Source: an uncultured Candidatus Melainabacteria bacterium (GTDB lineage: Bacteria; Cyanobacteriota; Vampirovibrionia; Gastranaerophilales; Gastranaerophilaceae). Taken from it: 64,000 bases of DNA. Below, in pieces: positions 22,685-37,679 of the stretch. Below the pieces are notes generated by a model. That model was not told the DNA's origin and did no database searches. It was given only the letters and a program-made list of their open reading frames with translations. Where the stretch lies: positions 62,001 through 126,000 of the forward strand of contig CATKZI010000005.1 in NCBI GenBank assembly GCA_949841365.1, read 5' to 3'. Made by a program: the position numbers and the translations under genes. Each line of letters starts with the position of its first letter. Position 1 is the first letter of the stretch.

Positions 22685-22885
22685 TTATTCTTCAATTAAT
22701 GCATTAATATCAGCAACCATTGCGTCAGGGTCAAATCCGTGAACTTTAGCACCTGCTTCCAAATTTTCAAAATGAGCAGCTGCGCATCCGATACAACCCA
22801 AACCATATTTTTGGAATACTGCAATACTTTCAGGGCATTGTTGAACAATATCCATGATATTCATATCCTTAGTAATCTTAGCCAT
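22685..22885 (-). CDS. DUF1858 domain protein with CxxC
   Basis: 66 residues from the ATG preceded by AAAGGAGAAGG; an upstream extension is not supported. The whole protein is a DUF1858 domain: TKDMNIMDIVQQCPESIAVFQKYGLGC-type start with the redox pair C-x-x-C in GLGCIGC (about 30-33) and the ending DALN-like VADINALIEE. Such small proteins are thought to be redox partners of hybrid-cluster and related proteins. No partner gene is next to it. Confidence 0.88.
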   Translation of the reverse strand: MAKITKDMNIMDIVQQCPESIAVFQKYGLGCIGCAAAHFENLEAGAKVHGFDPDAMVADINALIEE

Positions 22886-23011
22886 AATCCTTCTCCTTTT
22901 CTTTGACTTAATTGCAAAATTCATTAAACTACTATTAGTATATCCCAGTGGTGGGTGGAGCGGCACGCTCCTTAATAAAATTATACAATAAAAATAGAAG
23001 GATATGTAGTT

Positions 23012-27454: not shown

Positions 27455-28183
27455 TTATTTCTGCGAAATGTAGCTCAAAACACCGTTGATAAATGTAAGC
27501 GGATGAACAGGGCAACCCGGAATATACAAATCAATCGGATATTTATCCAAAAATTCTCTGTTTAATTCTGTACTGTTTTGGAAAACTCCGCCTGATATTG
27601 CACACGCTCCGCAAAGAATTACTAGTTTTGGGTTCGGAACTGATTTGTAGCAATCCTCTAGTGCATAAGCCATATTTTTTGTAATCGGACCTGTGATTAC
27701 GATACCGTCAGCGTGTCTTGGGGAAGCCACAAAGTCGATACCAAATCTGCCCATATCAAAGTTAACGTTTGAGCAGGCATTCAATTCCATTTCACAGCCG
27801 TTACAGCCACCTGCCGAAACCTGACGAAGCTTCAAAGAACGTCCGAACATTTTAACGATTTCTTTTTTAACTTCAACTGCTGATTTTACGTAATCCTCAT
27901 AATTTGATTGAGGAGTAACGATTAATTTTTCTCTGTCGGTTGATGTTAATTTATAACCGTTGGTGAATTCAACGCCTTGAGATTGGCAAGCACCGCAGAA
28001 TGTACATTTGCCCATATCAATTGAATTTGCTTTTAATGCACCTGTCGGGCATACACTTTCATCACAATTAAGCCCTTCTTTCAATACGGGAAAACCTCTG
28101 AATTGTTCTCTCATCGGAGCATTTTTAATATCTTTTATAAATTGATTTCCTTGAAAAATTCTTGATTTTAATGTATCAAACAT
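27455..28183 (-). CDS. hydrogenase-related complex small subunit (NuoB/HyfI type) with fused ferredoxin part
   Basis: 242 residues. The N-terminal part (about 25-75) is a worn-down 2[4Fe-4S] ferredoxin: CTFCGAC plus one CPTGA cysteine remain, enough for one cluster, while the other is lost. The NuoB-like domain (about 115-240) keeps all four ligands of the proximal cluster: AGGCNGC, GACAISGG and IPGCPVHP. It should pass electrons between a soluble donor and the large subunit. Last gene of the six-gene operon, 12 bases after the large subunit gene. Confidence 0.9.
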   Translation of the reverse strand: MFDTLKSRIFQGNQFIKDIKNAPMREQFRGFPVLKEGLNCDESVCPTGALKANSIDMGKCTFCGACQSQGVEFTNGYKLTSTDREKLIVTPQSNYEDYVKSAVEVKKEIVKMFGRSLKLRQVSAGGCNGCEMELNACSNVNFDMGRFGIDFVASPRHADGIVITGPITKNMAYALEDCYKSVPNPKLVILCGACAISGGVFQNSTELNREFLDKYPIDLYIPGCPVHPLTFINGVLSYISQK

Positions 28184-28195
28184 AGTTTTTATTCC

Positions 28196-29644
28196 TTATA
28201 AATCATTTCCGCAATATGATAAATTGTGGCTTTTGTTACACAGCGGGAAGTCTGAAACGCCGTTGTTTCTAACGGCAAGCGCAAGACCGTACCAGTTGTT
28301 GAATGACGGGTCTTTAATCTTGTATCTGCTTAAATTTCCGTTGCTGTCGGTCATTGCGATATGGACAACTTCACCTCTCCAGCCTTCAACAATTGAGATT
28401 GCAAAAGCATCTTTTGCCATTTCACCGCCTTGTACAATAATCGGTTCGTCTTTAATTTGTTCCAATTTTGCAAAACATTTTCTGATAATTGAGAATGACT
28501 GCAAAATTTCTTTGTATCTCAATTTAAAGCGGGAATTAACATCATTTGTGGCTTTGAAAGCTTTTTTATGAATGCCCAATTCCTCATTCCATTTGTCAGG
28601 AAAATCAAAGCGGGAATCGACATCAACACCGCAAGCTCGTCCTGCCATACCGATTAAGCCTGCTTCTTGCGCGCGTTCTGTACTTACCGTACCTGTTTTT
28701 TCCAATCTTGACATAACGGTTGAATTTTTAAGCATTGTATTTGTCATACGTTCAACATCTTTTTCAACTTTTGCAAAAGTTTTCAATGCTCTGTCGATTT
28801 TTTCTTGAGAAATATCGTAATTTACACCGCCGACAGTAACCATACCGCGTCCGAAACGGCTTCCCGAAAATTCAAGCATTGTGTTAATAACAAGCGTTCT
28901 TGTCGCACCAAATACCGATGCGCCCATAAGATATGCGATATCGCCTGCGATTGCGCCCAAATCGCCGATATGAATTGCGGCTCTTTCCATTTCCAAACAT
29001 GCTTTTCGGATTAACTGAGCCTTATCGGAAATTTGAATACCTTTTAAAGTTTCCATAATTTGAGAATAAGCTGTATTATATGCAATAACGCTGTCTCCGC
29101 AAATTGATTCGGCAAGCTGATTTGACGGGCATTTAACCATCATATCCTCAACCCCTCTGTGCTGATAACCAAGCATTATTTCTAAATGGTAAACGGTTTC
29201 GCCATTGCACATAAATCTAAAATGTCCCGGTTCAATTACACCCGCGTGGATTGGACCTACCGCAACCTGATGGACTTCATCGCCTGTCATTTCAAAGAAT
29301 TCGTAATTGTCCTGATTTTTTCTAACAGGTTTCAACCAAGGGTGGTTGAGCGGTTTAATCCCGAACTGTTCGAAAAATTCTCTTTCATAAATATGGAAAG
29401 CGGGAATCGCATTTGTTATACATTCGTAAGATTTTTCATCTGCCTCAAATACAGCTGATGAAACAAGAAGTTCGGGAGCGTTTTCCAAAACAACAAACAA
29501 TCTTACCCTGCCTTCGCCCCAATCTTTGCCGAAAAACGCAATCGGGCGTTTGTTTTCTTTTATAATTTCTTCTCTCAATTCACCGATTTTCAAAACGGGA
29601 ATATCAGATAAGTTTACTTTTGAGTTATTTTTTAATACTAACAT
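28196..29644 (-). CDS. hydrogenase-related large subunit (NuoCD/HyfG type) lacking NiFe ligands
   Basis: 482 residues. A NuoC-like N-domain (about 30-110, with HIYEREFFEQFGI) is fused to a NuoD/hydrogenase large-subunit domain (GPIHAGVIEPGHFRF near 130; MLGYQHRGVED). The NiFe site is gone. The first CxxC is C182-G-D-S185 with Tyr at the usual His position 189, and the C-terminal DPCxxC is D-P-S447-F-N-N450. Only one of four nickel cysteines is left, so hydrogen chemistry is not expected. The subunit fits the Ehr (energy-converting hydrogenase-related) group. Confidence 0.9.
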   Translation of the reverse strand: MLVLKNNSKVNLSDIPVLKIGELREEIIKENKRPIAFFGKDWGEGRVRLFVVLENAPELLVSSAVFEADEKSYECITNAIPAFHIYEREFFEQFGIKPLNHPWLKPVRKNQDNYEFFEMTGDEVHQVAVGPIHAGVIEPGHFRFMCNGETVYHLEIMLGYQHRGVEDMMVKCPSNQLAESICGDSVIAYNTAYSQIMETLKGIQISDKAQLIRKACLEMERAAIHIGDLGAIAGDIAYLMGASVFGATRTLVINTMLEFSGSRFGRGMVTVGGVNYDISQEKIDRALKTFAKVEKDVERMTNTMLKNSTVMSRLEKTGTVSTERAQEAGLIGMAGRACGVDVDSRFDFPDKWNEELGIHKKAFKATNDVNSRFKLRYKEILQSFSIIRKCFAKLEQIKDEPIIVQGGEMAKDAFAISIVEGWRGEVVHIAMTDSNGNLSRYKIKDPSFNNWYGLALAVRNNGVSDFPLCNKSHNLSYCGNDL

Positions 29645-31081
29645 TTAAAATCCTCCAACTGCCAGTTTTATAATGTTATTTAAAAACGGCGGAATGTATA
29701 CACCCAATACAAATACAATCAAAAGCATTACAAATTGAGGAATATACATACAAACACTTACCTTGTGTCTGTTTTCGTCAATAACTTTTGCCTTATCATC
29801 ACTTACGTTTCCGAAAGCTGTCTTGATAACAACTTTACCTAAACCGTAAAGAACAATTGTCAAAAGGATTACAAACAAAGCACAAAGTACAAACTTATGT
29901 TCAATAATCATTTGTTTTATCATCAAAAATTCACTGATAAATAACACTGATGTCGGGAACGCACAAATTGCCAAAAACGAGCAGACCCATAACCAGCCTG
30001 TCTTACCGTCAGCTTTAATAAGACCGTTTACAGACTTAATTCTTTTTGTACCGTAAAGTTCCAAAACATTACCTGAAGTTAAGAAAAATGATGCCTTAGC
30101 AAGCGAGTGACCTATTAAATGTAAGATTACCGCATAAAAAGCAACGCCGCCCAAAGCTGTTCCAATTGCTAAAATACCCATATTTTCAATTGATGAATAA
30201 GCAAGCATTCTTTTGTAATTTTTGATATGGTAAACAAATACCGCAGTCACAAACAATGACAAAAATCCCATTACAAAAAGCATTAATCTTGCATAATCCG
30301 CGCATCCCGCAATCTCTAAAATTTTAAATACTCTGACAATTACAAGAAAAGCAGAATTCAAAAGACAAGCTGAAAGCAATGCCGAAATCGGCGACGGAGC
30401 TTCTGAGTGAGCATCGGGAAGCCAAAAATGAATTGGAGCTAATCCCATTTTTGCACCAAAGCCAAACAACATAAATACAAATGCAATTTTCAACCAGTTC
30501 AAATCAAATTGTGAAGCGTGGCTGTAAAGTTCCGCAAAACTCAATGAATTTACCGCACCTGTTGAAATGTTTAACAAAATAATTCCGACAAACGCGAGTG
30601 CAATACCGATTGAGCAAATAAATACATATTTCCAAGCAGCTTCAATTGAATGTTTTGTTTTGTTAAAATAAATCAAATATGCGCTTGATAAAGTTGTAGC
30701 TTCAACCAAAACCCAAGCCAAACCTAAATCCGTACTCAACAAAGTTCCTGTCATTGAAAGCACAAATATCAAAATCATAAATGAATAATGACTGATTTTT
30801 TTATCGGGAAATTCAAAGTTTTTGACATAACCTGCGTTATAAACAGCCACCATCAAGAATACTAGTGACAATACAATTAAAAAGATTAAATTTGTATTAT
30901 CAACCGCAAAGTAAGGTATTGATTTTTCGCCGTATCCTAATGTTAATAATACTGTAATTACAAAATGTACAACTGCATACAAACTTACCAAAAACGTATT
31001 AAATTTTCTGTTTTTGATTAAAAGTGTCAATATACATGCAATTATCGGAAATATTAAAAGTGTACTAATCATTGTTTTCAT
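29645..31081 (-). CDS. ion-pumping membrane subunit (HyfF / NuoN-like)
   Basis: 478 residues, about 14 membrane helices of the Mrp antiporter / complex I pump type. Key family segments: WVLVEATTLSSAYLIYF (glutamate of helix 5), FGAKMGLAPIHFWLPDAHSEAPSPISALLSA (helix 7-8 with Lys and His) and KNYKRMLAYSSIENMGILAIG. It should move protons or sodium across the inner membrane. Shorter than NuoL and without its lateral helix. Directly abuts the large-subunit gene. Confidence 0.92.
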   Translation of the reverse strand: MKTMISTLLIFPIIACILTLLIKNRKFNTFLVSLYAVVHFVITVLLTLGYGEKSIPYFAVDNTNLIFLIVLSLVFLMVAVYNAGYVKNFEFPDKKISHYSFMILIFVLSMTGTLLSTDLGLAWVLVEATTLSSAYLIYFNKTKHSIEAAWKYVFICSIGIALAFVGIILLNISTGAVNSLSFAELYSHASQFDLNWLKIAFVFMLFGFGAKMGLAPIHFWLPDAHSEAPSPISALLSACLLNSAFLVIVRVFKILEIAGCADYARLMLFVMGFLSLFVTAVFVYHIKNYKRMLAYSSIENMGILAIGTALGGVAFYAVILHLIGHSLAKASFFLTSGNVLELYGTKRIKSVNGLIKADGKTGWLWVCSFLAICAFPTSVLFISEFLMIKQMIIEHKFVLCALFVILLTIVLYGLGKVVIKTAFGNVSDDKAKVIDENRHKVSVCMYIPQFVMLLIVFVLGVYIPPFLNNIIKLAVGGF

Positions 31082-31715
31082 AATCCTTTAAATCTGATAA
31101 ATTAGAAACTTCAAGGTCATTAAATTCCTTGTTAATAACGTTGACGAACAAGCCCAAAATATAAACGGCAATAAATACGTCAAGCAAAACACCCATATTT
31201 ACCAATACAGGCATTTCTTTTGCAACGGAAAGCGACAATAAAAATATACCGTTTTCCATTGTAATAAACTCGATTACGTTAGAAATAATTTTATGTTTAA
31301 TCGTAATCAGCCACAAACTTATAATAATTGTTGCAACAGAAACACCAAAGAACATCGGTGAAATAAGTTTCATTGAAGAAACAAAATATTCAGACACCAA
31401 AAATCCTGCCAATAAAATTACGCTTGAAATTACCAAACAGTAAAAATGCGGAATATTCGCTGCAACATCACGGTTTGAGTGAGTTTTCTTCAAAACTCTG
31501 TACAAAAACCAAGGTATAACAATTGCTTTGACAACTAAAGTTTCAACAGTTAAAAATGCGAAATTAAATTTGTCAATATGTTCCATACCACAGCAGCAGA
31601 TTAGAAAAAGTAAAATTCCTTGTGCAATTAACAATCTGATATGCGCAACAATTCTGCTGGTTGCGGATAAATATAACATTGTAAGTCCGAAAAGTATTAG
31701 AAATCCGTTTACCAT
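31065..31715 (-). CDS. HyfE-like membrane subunit
   Basis: 216 residues with about six to seven hydrophobic helices. HyfE resemblance: start LFGLTMLYLSATSR, middle FLTVETLVVKAIVIPWFLYRVL and later ENGIFLLSLS. HyfE proteins combine NuoK- and NuoJ-like parts and sit in the membrane arm. Its start lies three bases after the HyfC-like gene, and its 3' end overlaps the HyfF-like gene by 17 bases. Confidence 0.88.
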   Translation of the reverse strand: MVNGFLILFGLTMLYLSATSRIVAHIRLLIAQGILLFLICCCGMEHIDKFNFAFLTVETLVVKAIVIPWFLYRVLKKTHSNRDVAANIPHFYCLVISSVILLAGFLVSEYFVSSMKLISPMFFGVSVATIIISLWLITIKHKIISNVIEFITMENGIFLLSLSVAKEMPVLVNMGVLLDVFIAVYILGLFVNVINKEFNDLEVSNLSDLKDYENND

Positions 31716-31718
31716 TCT

Positions 31719-32627
31719 CTAGCCTCCAAACATCCTTGCAACAACAAGCGCAAGAACTACTAACGCAAATGAACTCATCAAAAATACAAATTCAAATACA
31801 TGTGACATTCTAAATCTTGCCATTGCAGATTCAACAGTTCCGATAATAACAGAGATTATAAACATTACGAAAAGATAAGCTAAAACCGCCATCCATTCCG
31901 TTAACCCCTGAGGGATTACGATAAACGCAATCAAAGAAGACAATAAAAGCATCTTAATGCTGTTAGCCCAAGTAAAGAATGCCAAATCGCTTCCCGAATT
32001 GTCCAAAATCATAACCTCATGTATCATAGTCAACTCAAGGTGAGTTGCAGGGTCATCAACAGGAACTCTCGAACCTTCAATCAAAATCATAATAAATAAT
32101 ACAACAACCGCGAAAATTTGGATTAATACCCCGTAATTTCCCGCACTTGCCAAAATATTTTGCAAACTGTCAAAAGTAAAGTTTCCGCTCAATGCCATAA
32201 TTGAAGCAATCAACATAAAAAATGCAGGTTCAACTATAGTTGTAAAACAAGCTTCACGAGATGCGCCCATTCCTTCAAACGAACTTCCCGTATCCATTGC
32301 AGAAATTAATGAAACAAATTTGCCCAAACTTAATGTATAAGCAAAGATTATCAGCCCTGCAGAAACATTAATCAATGCACTTCCGCAAGCTAAAGGTACA
32401 AACATTGACGCAAACAATACTGACGCAATCTGCACAACAGGCGCAATTTTGAATACTGTCGATGTTGTCTTGCTTATTACAAAATCTTTTTTCATCAGCT
32501 TGATAAAATCATGCAAAGGCTGAAATATCGAAGCGCCTTTTCTACCACCCCAAAAAGCTTTTGTTTTCTTTATCACACCCGCCATTAAAAACGGAACAAT
32601 TAAAAGTATTATCAAATTTATAATCAT
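31719..32627 (-). CDS. HyfC / NuoH-like membrane subunit
   Basis: 302 residues with eight predicted helices. Typical HyfC/HycD segments are KKTKAFWGGRKGASIFQPLHDFIKLMKKD (cytoplasmic loop, about 21-50), EGSRVPVDDPATHLELTMIHEVMILDNSG (about 192-220) with the charged quinone-cavity-like residues, and an arginine-rich end. It joins the membrane arm to the soluble subunits. ATGA overlap with the HyfB-like gene. Confidence 0.93.
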   Translation of the reverse strand: MIINLIILLIVPFLMAGVIKKTKAFWGGRKGASIFQPLHDFIKLMKKDFVISKTTSTVFKIAPVVQIASVLFASMFVPLACGSALINVSAGLIIFAYTLSLGKFVSLISAMDTGSSFEGMGASREACFTTIVEPAFFMLIASIMALSGNFTFDSLQNILASAGNYGVLIQIFAVVVLFIMILIEGSRVPVDDPATHLELTMIHEVMILDNSGSDLAFFTWANSIKMLLLSSLIAFIVIPQGLTEWMAVLAYLFVMFIISVIIGTVESAMARFRMSHVFEFVFLMSSFALVVLALVVARMFGG

Positions 32628-34600
32628 ATTAATAAGCTCCCGATTATTACAATTACAAGGAATATCAAACCGTATTTGATATATGACTGAATATTACCGC
32701 TTTGAATTCCTTCAAATTTAGATAAGAACCACTCGTCAGATTTCAAAATCGGTTCAATTACATAAGCTTCTTCAATATCTTCTACATGCAAACTAAAGTG
32801 AGCACTTTGAGGGAATAATTTTCTCGGTTTTTCTACATCAAACACCTTCTTGAACAAAGGATTTAACATTGACAAGAAAGGACTTGCGTAAGATGATGCC
32901 GTATATTGCATGTGGTTATTTGCTCTGTTATAACCGCATCCCCAAGTTTCGTGCATTTCAATTTTGCCGTTTGTAAGTTTAACTTTAACCAACACAAGCA
33001 CTCCGACAAATACCAAGAATGCCAATGCATACAATGTAATCACACCCACAACAGAAAGCGTAGGCAATATATTATATTGCATAACAGGTGTCAAAACACT
33101 TACGGGTCTTAACAGCAACACAAATACAAATATCGGCAAAACCCCGATAGCCAACGAAGCCAACGCTAAAAATCCCATCGGTAAAATCATTGAAAGTTCA
33201 CAATCGCGTGTAACTTTTTGAGCCGAAGCACTTCTCGGCATTCCAAGGAAAATAATGCTGAATGCCTTTGAAAAACAAAGCACTGCCATAGTTCCGACTA
33301 ACGCCAAACCTGCAATAGCAAACAAAATTAATATTACCGTTGAAAAATTATGAATTGATAAACCCTTGAACATTCCCAGATATATTAAAAATTCACTTAT
33401 AAATCCGTTGAAAGGCGGAAGTCCGCAAATCGCAATTGAACCTATAAGAAATAATACCGCAGTTTTAGGCATTGACTTAATCAAACCGCCCAAAAGTTCA
33501 ATGTTTCTGGTATGAGTTTTTATATATACACTTCCCGCACCCATAAACAAAAGTTCTTTGAATAATGAGTGGTTCAATACATGGAGAATTCCGCCTGCAA
33601 ACCCTAGCATTGCAATAACTGGATGATTATATGCAAGTCCGAGCATTCCGACGCCGATACCCATTCCGATAATCCCGATGTTTTCAATACTGTGATAAGC
33701 AAGAAGTCTTTTTAAATCATGCTGTGATATAGCATATAAAACGCCATATAAAGCCGAAATTACGGAAATTATCAAAACTGCAAAAGCAATTGATTTTGAC
33801 GGAGTTCCGATTAAAGATAAAGTTCTTAAAATTCCGTAAATACCTGTCTTAATCATAACACCCGACATAATTGCACTGACATGAGAAGGTGCTGCAGGGT
33901 GAGCATCAGGCAACCAGTTATGGAACGGTACAAAACCTGCCTTTGTTCCAAAACCGATAAACAACAATATAAATATCATATTTGCAAAATGAACATTTTC
34001 ACCTAAAACAGCTTTGAAAGAATTGAAATCAAAACTTCCTGCCTTAATTGATAAAAGTGCAAATGCAATCATTATAAAAAGAACCGAAATATGCATAAAT
34101 ACTAAGTATTTTATTCCGGCTTTTAAAACATCTTTCTTTTCGTTTTCAAAAATCACAAGGAAAAATGAACTCAACGACATTATTTCCCAACAGATTAGAA
34201 ACATAAACGCATTTTGGCAAGTAACAACTGCCTGCATTGATGCAAAAAGCATCGGCAAAAATACTAAATGCGCATTAATATTCTTACCTTTTTCAACATA
34301 AGGTCTTAAATATCCGATTGCATATACAGCCGTAACTAAACTCATCACGGAAATTACTGCAATAAAAAATGCTGAAAGCGGGTCAATAACAAAGTTTACA
34401 GCCCCGAATAATGAATTGAAATTAAAAGTTTGAACTAAATTTTCACCGCCGAATAAAACTTTAACAGCAGGCACAAGAGCAAACCCTGAAGCTATAGCTG
34501 TAAACACAGACAGTGCAATAGTTTTAAACTTATTAGAAAATTTTCCTGCGATAAATCCGCAGAGCAATAGAATGATTAAACTTGTGAAAAAGCTATTCAT
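32624..34600 (-). CDS. HyfB-like ion-pumping membrane subunit
   Basis: 658 residues, about 16 helices of the NuoL/M/N antiporter type. Visible: MFLICWEIMSLSSFFLVIFENE (helix 5 glutamate), GFGTKAGFVPFHNWLPDAHPAAPSHVSAIMSG, and HDLKRLLAYHSIENIGIIGMG. The long C-terminal extension contains a conserved ETWGCGY and a last helix, as in HyfB/HycC. First gene of the operon HyfB-C-E-F-G-I types. There is no separate HyfA or HyfH ferredoxin gene; a ferredoxin remnant is fused to the small subunit. Confidence 0.93.
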   Translation of the reverse strand: MNSFFTSLIILLLCGFIAGKFSNKFKTIALSVFTAIASGFALVPAVKVLFGGENLVQTFNFNSLFGAVNFVIDPLSAFFIAVISVMSLVTAVYAIGYLRPYVEKGKNINAHLVFLPMLFASMQAVVTCQNAFMFLICWEIMSLSSFFLVIFENEKKDVLKAGIKYLVFMHISVLFIMIAFALLSIKAGSFDFNSFKAVLGENVHFANMIFILLFIGFGTKAGFVPFHNWLPDAHPAAPSHVSAIMSGVMIKTGIYGILRTLSLIGTPSKSIAFAVLIISVISALYGVLYAISQHDLKRLLAYHSIENIGIIGMGIGVGMLGLAYNHPVIAMLGFAGGILHVLNHSLFKELLFMGAGSVYIKTHTRNIELLGGLIKSMPKTAVLFLIGSIAICGLPPFNGFISEFLIYLGMFKGLSIHNFSTVILILFAIAGLALVGTMAVLCFSKAFSIIFLGMPRSASAQKVTRDCELSMILPMGFLALASLAIGVLPIFVFVLLLRPVSVLTPVMQYNILPTLSVVGVITLYALAFLVFVGVLVLVKVKLTNGKIEMHETWGCGYNRANNHMQYTASSYASPFLSMLNPLFKKVFDVEKPRKLFPQSAHFSLHVEDIEEAYVIEPILKSDEWFLSKFEGIQSGNIQSYIKYGLIFLVIVIIGSLLI

Positions 34601-34996: not shown

Positions 34997-35230
34997 TTAT
35001 AATTTAGATACTTTATCTCTTAAATCCAATAAGTGAATATGTAAATCTCTTAAATTTTTATTCATCTCGTTTAGTTGTTTTTGGGATATAGGTTTTCTAT
35101 TACCGCTGTATTTAGTATCTACAGTGTAATTGCTAAATTCAAGTATTCCTTCAAATGCTCCTACCAAGCCAATATAATTTTCTTTAAAATTTTTCACTTG
35201 CTCATTCAATATTTCTAAACATACATCCAT
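34997..35230 (-). CDS. small protein between twin XRE regulators, unknown function
   Basis: 77 residues from the ATG preceded by GAGGAG; an upstream extension would run through the operator and is rejected. Helical, charged, soluble; no family recognised. Its stop directly abuts the stop of XRE copy 1 (convergent). Its start faces operator copy 2, which it shares with the divergent XRE copy 2. Control by the XRE proteins is therefore likely. Confidence 0.7.
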   Translation of the reverse strand: MDVCLEILNEQVKNFKENYIGLVGAFEGILEFSNYTVDTKYSGNRKPISQKQLNEMNKNLRDLHIHLLDLRDKVSKL

Positions 35231-35246
35231 AATTTTCTCCTCATTA

Positions 35247-35276
35247 TGTGCCAATTGGCGGTCGACTATTGTCACA
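35247..35276 (+). promoter_or_regulatory. 30-bp operator-like element, copy 2
   Basis: TGTGCCAATTGGCGGTCGAC then TATTGTCACA. TCGACT lies 17 bases before TACAGT (35285-35290), and the ATG follows seven bases later. This is the same geometry as copy 1. It lies between two divergent genes. Confidence 0.75.
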
Positions 35277-35635: not shown

Positions 35636-36499
35636 ATGACAATTACTCAAAATCTTGATACAAAAGATTGTATCAATCCAACTGATGTCGCTCACGAGCT
35701 GACCGAACAGGTTATGCCCGCTAAAGCGAATTTTAGAAAATCAAAAACATTCGTACTTGCTATCGCTGCAGGTGCTCTAATTGCTTTCGGTGCGCAGGTT
35801 TCACTTACTGTTATGACAGGAACGGAACAGGTTAGCTGGGGGCTTGCAAAACTCGTCGGAGCAATGACTTTCGCTACAGGTTTGATGATGGTAGTTTTGA
35901 CAGGTGCAGAACTTTTCACAGGTAATGTTATGATGTCTTTTGCGGTTATCGAAAAGAAAACAAGCCTTGCAAAACTATTAAGAAACTGGACTATCGTTTA
36001 TCTCGGAAACCTTGTCGGTTCAATAATTTTAGCTACATTAATATATTTTTCGGGATGCTCACATAATTCTCATGAAGCATTAGGCGTTATGGGCTTAACA
36101 ACAGCTTATACAAAAGCTTCATTACCATTGGTTGAAGCATTCACCAGAGGTATTTTATGTAACTGGTTAGTATGTCTTGCAATCTGGATGGCTTCATCAT
36201 CAAGACACGTTATCGGTAAAATCTTTGCAATATTTTTCCCGATTATGACATTCGTTGCTTCAGGATATGAACACAGTATTGCAAATATGTATTTCTTAAC
36301 TAACGGTTTGTTCTTAAAAAATACACCTGCAGTTGTTGCAGCATCAGGATTGACTGCTGATCAGCTTTCTGTATTAAACTTAAAAACTTGTATTTTAGGA
36401 AACCTAATCCCTGTAACATTGGGTAACATGGTAGGTGCATTAGTTTTCGTAGTACTATTATTCTGGACAGCTTATTTAAGAGATGATCACAACGATTAA
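35636..36499 (+). CDS. formate/nitrite transporter (FocA/NirC family)
   Basis: 287 residues, six membrane helices. Family marks are GALIAFGAQVSL near 48, LTGAELFTGNVMMSF (about 89-103), LLRNWTIVYLGNLVGS, RGILCNWLVCLAIWMA (about 171-186) and GYEHSIANMYF (about 216-226, central His). It carries formate, nitrite or a similar small anion through the inner membrane; which one cannot be fixed from sequence. Ribosome site AGAGGAGAT. The next gene, a porin-like protein, overlaps its end by 17 bases. Confidence 0.93.
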   Translation: MTITQNLDTKDCINPTDVAHELTEQVMPAKANFRKSKTFVLAIAAGALIAFGAQVSLTVMTGTEQVSWGLAKLVGAMTFATGLMMVVLTGAELFTGNVMMSFAVIEKKTSLAKLLRNWTIVYLGNLVGSIILATLIYFSGCSHNSHEALGVMGLTTAYTKASLPLVEAFTRGILCNWLVCLAIWMASSSRHVIGKIFAIFFPIMTFVASGYEHSIANMYFLTNGLFLKNTPAVVAASGLTADQLSVLNLKTCILGNLIPVTLGNMVGALVFVVLLFWTAYLRDDHND

Positions 36500-37679
36500 G
36501 AGAATACTGTTAATATTATTGCTAATTTCTTCTTCTGCGTATGCAGAAGAAGAAATTTTGCTGGAAAAAACACCTCTTTTTGAAAGCGGTGCAACTGTCG
36601 AAGATGCGATTGAAGCTCCTTTAGACAGTTCTGTTCACCACCATACAAAGTTCTATGATGAGCTTTATAAAAATGCTCATAACGTTTATAACCTTCAAAT
36701 TGAAAACACAAACGTTCCGTCTTGTCTTTTAAAAGAGCCTTTAACACACACATTTGAAAAAGGACCGATTGAAAGCGTTCACCTTTGGGGTGTTGTTCAA
36801 ATGAACAACAGTACAAATTTTGATGAAGGCGATACCGACAACAATTTTAGAGTAGGTCTTATAAATGCTCTTATTGACGGAAAATTCAAAGGCGGTAAGG
36901 AGGATTTCAGGATTATGCTTGATCCGACGCCAACTCATGCCAGAGGATTTTTCCAACAGTTTATACAAGATTTATACGTGGAAACACACAGGATACCGCA
37001 TCATACGGTTTTGGTCGGTAATTCACGTCCCGGTGTCGGAATTGAGGGAGCGCAATCTCCTTATACATTACCTCTGGTAAGCCGTTCTCAAATTTCAAGA
37101 AACCTCGCAAATGTGAGAAAATTCGGGATAAGAGTTCGCGGAGATTATTCACTTGTTGATTACGATTTTGGCGGATACAGTTCAGATACATACTTTAGAG
37201 AATTTTTCCCCGGTGCGGAATTTGACGGCTGGGTAAACTTTAAACCACTTGGCAAAACCAACGGAAAATACGGAAAACTTGTCACAGGGGGCGGTATTGT
37301 ATCAGGTAAAAAACATTCCACAGATTATTTTGTAGCAGGCGCTTATGTCGGCTACGAATACAAAAAGTTATGGATGCGCGCGGAATACGCAAATTCTGAC
37401 GGATCAAACGGTGGAGACGGGCTTACCAATAAAAAACGTCAGGGCTGGTATGCAACAATAGGCTATCATATTACCAAAAAGCTTGAAGCTATATTACGTT
37501 ACGACGAATTTGACCCCGACAAAACTATCAGTAATAACAATAAACGAGAATATACAGCAGGAATTAATTATTACGTAAAAGGACAAGCCCTGAAGCTTAT
37601 CCTCAATTACGTATTCTGTCAAAATCAAGCGTCGCCCGACAGTCATAGAATTATCGTCGGAACGCAGATTGCATTATGA
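36483..37679 (+). CDS. outer-membrane porin-like beta-barrel protein
   Basis: 398 residues. Signal peptide about 1-21 (ends SSAYA). From about 95 on there are alternating strand patterns (VHLWGVVQMN, FRVGLINALIDGKF, FRIMLDPTPTH, FGIRVRGDYSLVDYDFGGYS, GWYATIGYHITKKLEAILRYDEF) and a last strand ending in a hydrophobic residue (IIVGTQIAL), as in phosphate-selective-porin-like barrels. The start lies within the transporter gene, so the two are translated together. It probably gives the same solute an entry through the outer membrane; this is inference. Confidence 0.82.
   Translation: MITTIKRILLILLLISSSAYAEEEILLEKTPLFESGATVEDAIEAPLDSSVHHHTKFYDELYKNAHNVYNLQIENTNVPSCLLKEPLTHTFEKGPIESVHLWGVVQMNNSTNFDEGDTDNNFRVGLINALIDGKFKGGKEDFRIMLDPTPTHARGFFQQFIQDLYVETHRIPHHTVLVGNSRPGVGIEGAQSPYTLPLVSRSQISRNLANVRKFGIRVRGDYSLVDYDFGGYSSDTYFREFFPGAEFDGWVNFKPLGKTNGKYGKLVTGGGIVSGKKHSTDYFVAGAYVGYEYKKLWMRAEYANSDGSNGGDGLTNKKRQGWYATIGYHITKKLEAILRYDEFDPDKTISNNNKREYTAGINYYVKGQALKLILNYVFCQNQASPDSHRIIVGTQIAL

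Follow-up and report, generated by a model that had tools for sequence, protein, structure and literature searches.

The window analysed here, a stretch of 64,000 nucleotides from an uncultured Candidatus Melainabacteria bacterium (contig CATKZI010000005.1, positions 62,001 to 126,000), carries a six-gene operon encoding an energy-converting-hydrogenase-related (Ehr) complex. This complex has lost the nickel ligands of its large subunit and has kept the iron-sulfur cluster ligands of its small subunit and the pump charges of its membrane arm, and the maturation protein HypD is missing from the genome. We give roughly even chances to the reading in which it is a ferredoxin-fed ion pump with an acceptor other than protons, working in a fermenting Gastranaerophilales bacterium.

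The six genes are contiguous on the minus strand and run from 34600 to 27455 in the order hyfB-C-E-F-G-I, as described in an earlier note on this DNA. All open reading frames are intact, and in a profile search they matched the HyfB, NuoH/HyfC, HyfE, HyfF, NuoCD/HyfG and NuoB/HyfI models, respectively. Adjacent genes overlap by a few bases or are separated by gaps of at most 12 bases. The antiporter-like membrane subunits expected of an Ehr complex are thus encoded in the same operon. The E. coli Hyf subunits HyfA, HyfD, HyfH and HyfJ have no counterpart among the six genes, and the NuoEFG input module expected of a complex I was found neither in the operon nor in its flanks.

Ligand positions were read from an alignment of the large subunit, 91 large subunits of the family and the E. 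coli proteins HycE and HyfG. The ligand set CxxC...CxxC of group 4 [NiFe] hydrogenases is absent, the four positions being occupied by C182, S185, S476 and G479. HycE C241 corresponds to C182, which is Cys in 75/91 sequences and otherwise N, A, V, S or T, and C244 corresponds to S185 (S in 80/91, T in 11/91). S476 and G479, which replace C531 and C534, are invariant in 91/91. HycE H248 is replaced by Y189 (Y in 69 and H in 20 of the 91 sequences) and the canopy aspartate D529 by Asn in 75/91, whereas C478, inside the second motif, is off the ligand position. The same substitutions recur in all 91 orthologues, from many separate assemblies; this is beyond chance and excludes a sequence error at both motifs. 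The earlier note had correctly read the first motif as CGDS, with S185 and with Tyr189 in place of His. It had also counted C182 as the sole retained nickel cysteine; being variable, this residue is a remnant and not a retained ligand. Its choice of DPSFNN as the equivalent of DPCxxC was rejected, since this segment aligns with HycE ATYANW. The real motif lies about 30 residues downstream, where NLSYCGNDL (474-482) pairs with NLCYACVDR of ligand-bearing relatives. The large subunit lacks a cleavable extension, its last residue aligning with the arginine of TDR in HycE. Its best sequence matches in the PDB are HycE (7z0s) and MbhL (6cfw), and a fold search with the AlphaFold model gave 7z0s_E (HycE) as the nearest fold.

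HypD, which serves Fe(CN)2CO assembly, was not found in the host genome by a search that was positive in E. coli and other controls, nor in 22/22 other tested Gastranaerophilales genomes with the complex. This result, on one of the maturation genes named in the earlier note, agrees with the loss of the site. A true [NiFe] hydrogenase with displaced ligands has next to no probability and was rejected as a candidate. C146, C469 and C182 do lie near the old site in sequence, a weak point in its favour, but only the first two are extra conserved cysteines and neither belongs to a CxxC pair, so that no full displaced set exists; moreover, HypD is absent and the two C-terminal ligand positions hold Ser and Gly without exception.

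The small subunit retains its proximal [4Fe-4S] cluster, as the earlier note had stated: the ligands C127, C130, C194 and C224 are fixed in 95/95 orthologues. The ferredoxin part fused to it has lost one cluster and contains exactly one complete [4Fe-4S] ligand set (C45, C60, C63 and C66), also fixed in 95/95. The conservation of both clusters argues for continued electron flow. The second ferredoxin cluster has been lost repeatedly: two full motifs are present in 42/98 small subunits and not in 56/98. The one-cluster state, proposed as the mark of a distinct subtype, was therefore rejected as a marker. What does define a subtype is the ferredoxin fusion, which a Variovorax plasmid complex has too.

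In a maximum-likelihood tree of large subunits, the window complex falls into a 36-row clade (support 100/100) apart from the formate hydrogenlyase (FHL), Ech and Nuo references, in a tree whose named references are few, being plasmid records and E. coli only, and for which the program flagged long branches. The tree contains no Geobacter, Riflemargulisbacteria or archaeal sequences. Inside this clade, the 32 ligand-less rows, the window complex included, form one group (100/98), which places the complex outside the true NiFe hydrogenases and supports its assignment to the Ehr type. The window family joins the Variovorax plasmid complex and families f8 and f13, all with a ferredoxin-fused small subunit. 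The Rhizobium and Burkholderia types, which have no ferredoxin part, branch separately.

The membrane arm retains its antiporter and E-channel charges, in support of the proposed ion pump. Residues E139, K220, K251, K348 and E403 of the hyfB subunit are fixed in 73/73 sequences, E125, E133, E184, D191 and E266 of the hyfC subunit in 75/75, and E127, K211 and K329 of the hyfF subunit in 81/81 (E384 in 79/81). In the large subunit, E138 of the proton-donor loop (HycE E193, MbhL E21), E379 of the proton path and R423 of the canopy are fixed in 91/91 and H225 is kept in 83/91 (roles of proton-path and canopy residues from PMC9474812 and PMC7684303). With E138, E379 and R423 fixed, the chamber still appears suited to proton-coupled chemistry.

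In the mechanism that we propose, reduced ferredoxin, the likely donor, would deliver electrons to the [4Fe-4S] cluster of the small-subunit ferredoxin domain, from which they would pass to the proximal cluster. They would then leave the proximal cluster for a non-proton acceptor bound in the former nickel-iron chamber, and the free energy released would drive H+ (or Na+) outward by way of the E-channel in HyfC and both antiporter-like subunits. Turnover of reduced ferredoxin is plausible in this host, because contig 4 (L196, 83000-90000) encodes a HydA-type FeFe hydrogenase with all three H-cluster motifs, TSCCPAW, MPCTAKKYE and EVMACPGGCINGGG. A 620-aa ORF adjoining this gene looks HydB-like when read by eye. 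Complementarity between the complex and FeFe hydrogenase was rejected, the latter occurring in 55/56 family genomes, and so was complementarity with a NuoD-type complex (Fisher p = 1.0).

Since complex I-like machines are reversible, the complex might also run backwards, an ion gradient driving ferredoxin reduction. We regard this as improbable: the complex is not known to bind any electron donor, and fermenters of this type normally reduce ferredoxin by pyruvate oxidation. The reverse mode was put forward for the gut Melainabacteria complex by Di Rienzi et al. 2013 (PMC3787301). Equally doubtful is a ferredoxin:quinone oxidoreductase of the kind known from photosynthetic and archaeal complex I. 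The chamber corresponds to the quinone site of complex I and a weak MenA-like prenyltransferase is encoded, but the quinone-site residues H38 and Y87 of Nqo4, expected in complex I, align with I137 and G183. With 73 of 264 and 43 of 102 bits, the prenyltransferase falls well short of the MenA cut-offs, and it occurs in nearly all family genomes, whether the complex is present or absent. Slightly less probable still is a sulfane-sulfur (polysulfide) reductase resembling Pyrococcus MBS, in which sulfur would be reduced at the proximal cluster. MBS is likewise a ferredoxin-fed complex I relative that has lost its nickel site, but it differs in its three-cysteine proximal cluster, two remaining nickel-site cysteines and Mrp module (PMC7684303). 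Its mechanism requires that three-cysteine cluster and shortened motif, whereas the window complex has the arrangement of true hydrogenases, with all four cysteines fixed and in CxxC spacing.

For a ferredoxin-fed pump, electrons arriving at the proximal cluster need an exit, and the leading candidate for a terminal site is a pair of large-subunit cysteines, C146 and C469. Judged from the aligned sequences, this pair appears to be fixed in the ferredoxin-fused subtype, a feature described here for the first time; it is common to Variovorax and nearly all f8/f13 sequences. Both cysteines are missing in FHL, Nuo, families f12 and f15 and Allomeiothermus. Ferredoxin-less Ehr complexes have no C146, C469 being present in Rhizobium and Methylovirgula. 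In the examined set, the pair was found where the ferredoxin domain and the proximal cluster are both present (window family, Variovorax, f8/f13). In the AlphaFold model of the large subunit alone, pLDDT is below 50 at residues 108-159 and 458-482, which makes the model unreliable for the geometry of C146 and C469. The tree shows only one gain of the pair, which therefore counts as a lead without being proof. It is possible, though unlikely, that the nickel-iron site was replaced and not merely lost. C146 and C469 would then form a new terminal site that receives electrons from the proximal cluster, either a thiol/disulfide or a thiol-bound metal or persulfide.

Several observations weigh against a redox-driven pump with a non-proton acceptor. 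No acceptor-binding motif was recognised. The complex is patchy, 11/70 family genomes carrying it and the others living without it. Finally, some relatives have lost the proximal cluster and kept the operon, which indicates that not all of the wider clade depends on electron transfer. Indeed, the f12/f15 complexes, found in the same bacterial class, show the opposite defect, described here for the first time: nickel ligands kept, proximal cluster lost and HypD absent. The second nickel motif LCYxC is intact at the large-subunit end in 12/12 genomes and the first, CGMC, in all 10 readable large subunits. The position of C130 is occupied by Glu in 11/11 small subunits seen and that of C224 by Asn or Asp in 10, the eleventh not being matched. 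HypD was not found in any of the 12 genomes. The f12/f15 small subunits have no ferredoxin part, and a cysteine remaining two residues off the C194 position may belong to an unusual metal site. A narrow literature search found no group 4 complex without a proximal cluster. These mirror complexes lie at loci L026-L029, L051, L052 and L163-L174, in genomes G101, G106, G111, G115, G120, G124, G128, G132, G135, G138, G142 and G153. On plasmid pMESIL01 of Allomeiothermus silvanus (L160:7640-9789), an Ehr complex has neither the nickel ligands nor any of the four proximal-cluster cysteines; it keeps one ferredoxin cluster set, leaving electrons without an evident path to the old active site. With the nickel site, the ferredoxin domain and the proximal cluster lost in different relatives, the electron path is broken at different points in one clade.

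These relatives count in favour of a rival reading, that of a cation/proton antiporter, redox-independent or merely redox-gated, with an Mrp-like membrane arm and a peripheral arm reduced to a structural or regulatory remnant. The f12/f15 complexes without proximal-cluster ligands or ferredoxin part would fit it, all pump residues being kept in f12, as would Allomeiothermus and the Rhizobium/Burkholderia type. However, all eight cluster cysteines are fixed in the 95 small subunits of the window family, which is unlikely for a remnant, and we hold the antiporter to be a serious but minority possibility.

The earlier note had suggested testing formate on account of the nearby FocA-type gene. The association of this channel with the complex proved tight. 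Among loci from genome collections, the operon's most frequent neighbours are a focA-type channel and a porin (29 loci each), and the pair is divergent from hyfB in 23/36 loci with at least 70% identity and enough sequence; other flanks vary. Within 70 family genomes, an intact channel gene is found only in genomes with the complex, a new observation (8/11 with it vs 0/59 without; Fisher p 1.7e-8, or 1.1e-4 by genus, close relatives not being independent). The channel gene is some 40 kb from the complex in genome G040 and on the opposite side of the operon in locus L060; the co-occurrence thus goes beyond adjacency. E. coli FocA is the closest match of the channel with 181 bits, ahead of LCIA with 147, the 3tdo group (the hydrosulfide channel) with 95 and NirC with 85.

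Pyruvate formate-lyase (PFL) was not found in the host genome, and molybdopterin oxidoreductase/formate dehydrogenase FdhA (PF00384) gave no match there, the control being positive in 11/14. This leaves the cell without PFL as a source of formate and without the usual enzyme to oxidise it, and a formate-oxidising partner is unlikely here. A formate-linked complex, in which a formate dehydrogenase (FDH-Ehr) would work with the FocA channel, is therefore very improbable in spite of the channel association. Other points in its favour are the greater abundance of Geobacter Ehr on formate than in hydrogen-containing conditions (PMC7894505) and the FDH-Ehr proposed in PMC6349859. Also in its favour, a genuine PFL (L038:13153-15234; TIGR01255, 1148 bits) lies about 1.5 kb downstream of the Ehr operon in a relative without the focA channel. 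Across the genomes, PFL presence does not differ significantly with the complex (4/11 vs 7/45, p 0.2). By contrast, a protein resembling a CoA-transferase alpha subunit when its sequence was looked at lies near the focA-porin pair in 12 loci (L039:1192-1839 and 11 others), and the channel's anion may be acetate or another short-chain or fermentation acid. Acetate or another acid is as likely as formate. In other clades the neighbours include no shared oxidoreductase, the commonest being an outer-membrane ShlB/BamA-like protein.

The window belongs to contig 5 of a 1.69 Mb genome of 99% completeness, whose nearest named relatives are Candidatus Gastranaerophilales / Melainabacteria metagenome-assembled genomes, many of animal gut origin. 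A 92-aa ORF between hyfB and focA (34997-35275) has no Pfam or NCBIfam match. A small DUF1858 / hybrid-cluster-protein-associated disulfide protein is encoded at 22685-22966, 4.5 kb from the operon, and at locus L049 a hybrid cluster protein lies upstream of an Ehr operon.

Features of the Ehr locus, in window coordinates.
Feature	Position	Strand	Basis or conservation
hyfB-type antiporter-like subunit, NuoL/MrpA-like, 658 aa	32624..34600	-	NF005086 hydrogenase 4 subunit B, 587 bits (cut-off 667); PF00361
hyfC-type subunit, NuoH-like membrane anchor, 302 aa	31719..32627	-	PF00146, 119 bits
hyfE-type subunit, NuoK-like, 216 aa	31065..31715	-	NF008556 hydrogenase 4 membrane subunit, 61 bits
hyfF-type antiporter-like subunit, 478 aa	29645..31081	-	NF005044 hydrogenase 4 subunit F, 322 bits
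hyfG-type large subunit, NuoC/NuoD domains, 482 aa, without nickel-iron ligands	28196..29644	-	PF00346, PF00329
C146, at the end of the beta1-beta2 loop	29207..29209	-	91/91 in family; also Variovorax, f8/f13
First ligand motif C182-GDS185-VIA-Y189 (HycE C241, C244, H248)	29078..29101	-	alignment
DPSFNN, residues 445-450	28295..28312	-	aligns with HycE ATYANW; not the DPCxxC motif
C469, seven residues before S476, just ahead of the old C-terminal ligand motif	28238..28240	-	90/91 in family; Variovorax; nearly all f8/f13
True second ligand motif N474-LSYCGNDL482 (HycE D529-PC531YSC534-TDR), S476 and G479 for cysteines	28199..28225	-	alignment
hyfI-type small subunit, NuoB domain behind N-terminal ferredoxin domain, 242 aa	27455..28183	-	PF01058; weak NuoI match at 50-93
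Ferredoxin-part cluster ligands C45, C60, C63, C66	27986..28051	-	fixed 95/95
Proximal [4Fe-4S] ligands C127, C130, C194, C224	27512..27805	-	fixed 95/95
focA-type formate/nitrite-family channel, divergent from hyfB	35636..36499	+	PF01226, 257 bits; closest solved relative FocA 3kcu
Outer-membrane porin, PF07396-like, 3' of focA	36483..37679	+	profile match, recurrent neighbour

Ehr complexes of gut Melainabacteria have already been reported by Di Rienzi et al. 2013 (PMC3787301) and Matheus Carnevali et al. 2019 (PMC6349859). What these papers describe, in the same bacterial class, is a six-subunit group 4-like complex without hydrogen-binding motifs, to which the name Ehr was given in 2019; their relevant sections contain no ligand-by-ligand analysis, ferredoxin-fusion subtype, C146/C469 pair or focA link. 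The Variovorax sp. PBL-E5 plasmid complex (NZ_LR594673, L136) shares the BCEFGI order, the ferredoxin-fused small subunit, the lost ligands and both C146 and C469, with 40% identity in the large and 51% in the small subunit. It differs in its two full ferredoxin motifs and in having a second, ferredoxin-less Ehr operon nearby. Plasmid 3 of this soil proteobacterium indeed carries two Ehr operons close together (L136:6872-14156 and L136:17568-24752), one ferredoxin-fused and the other without a ferredoxin part. The Rhizobium, Burkholderia and Methylovirgula Ehr complexes resemble that of the window in their BCEFG plus NuoB gene set, lost ligands and kept proximal cluster, but lack the ferredoxin domain and form a separate tree branch. 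E. coli Hyf and Hyc have homologous subunits, HycE (7z0s) being the nearest solved large-subunit fold; what sets them apart from the window complex is the presence of four nickel cysteines, of a C-terminal extension, of separate HyfA/HyfH-type ferredoxins, of HyfD (in Hyf) and of hyp genes.

Annotations of a NiFe hydrogenase in Gastranaerophilales may rest on Ehr, for instance in the oxygen-tolerance inference for koala gut genomes (PMC4040986). The relatives compared here form a natural series in which the electron path is dismantled (nickel site, ferredoxin domain, proximal cluster) and the pump is kept. The role of Ehr is a question in complex I evolution, and our comparison supplies two cysteines and a linked anion channel as leads.

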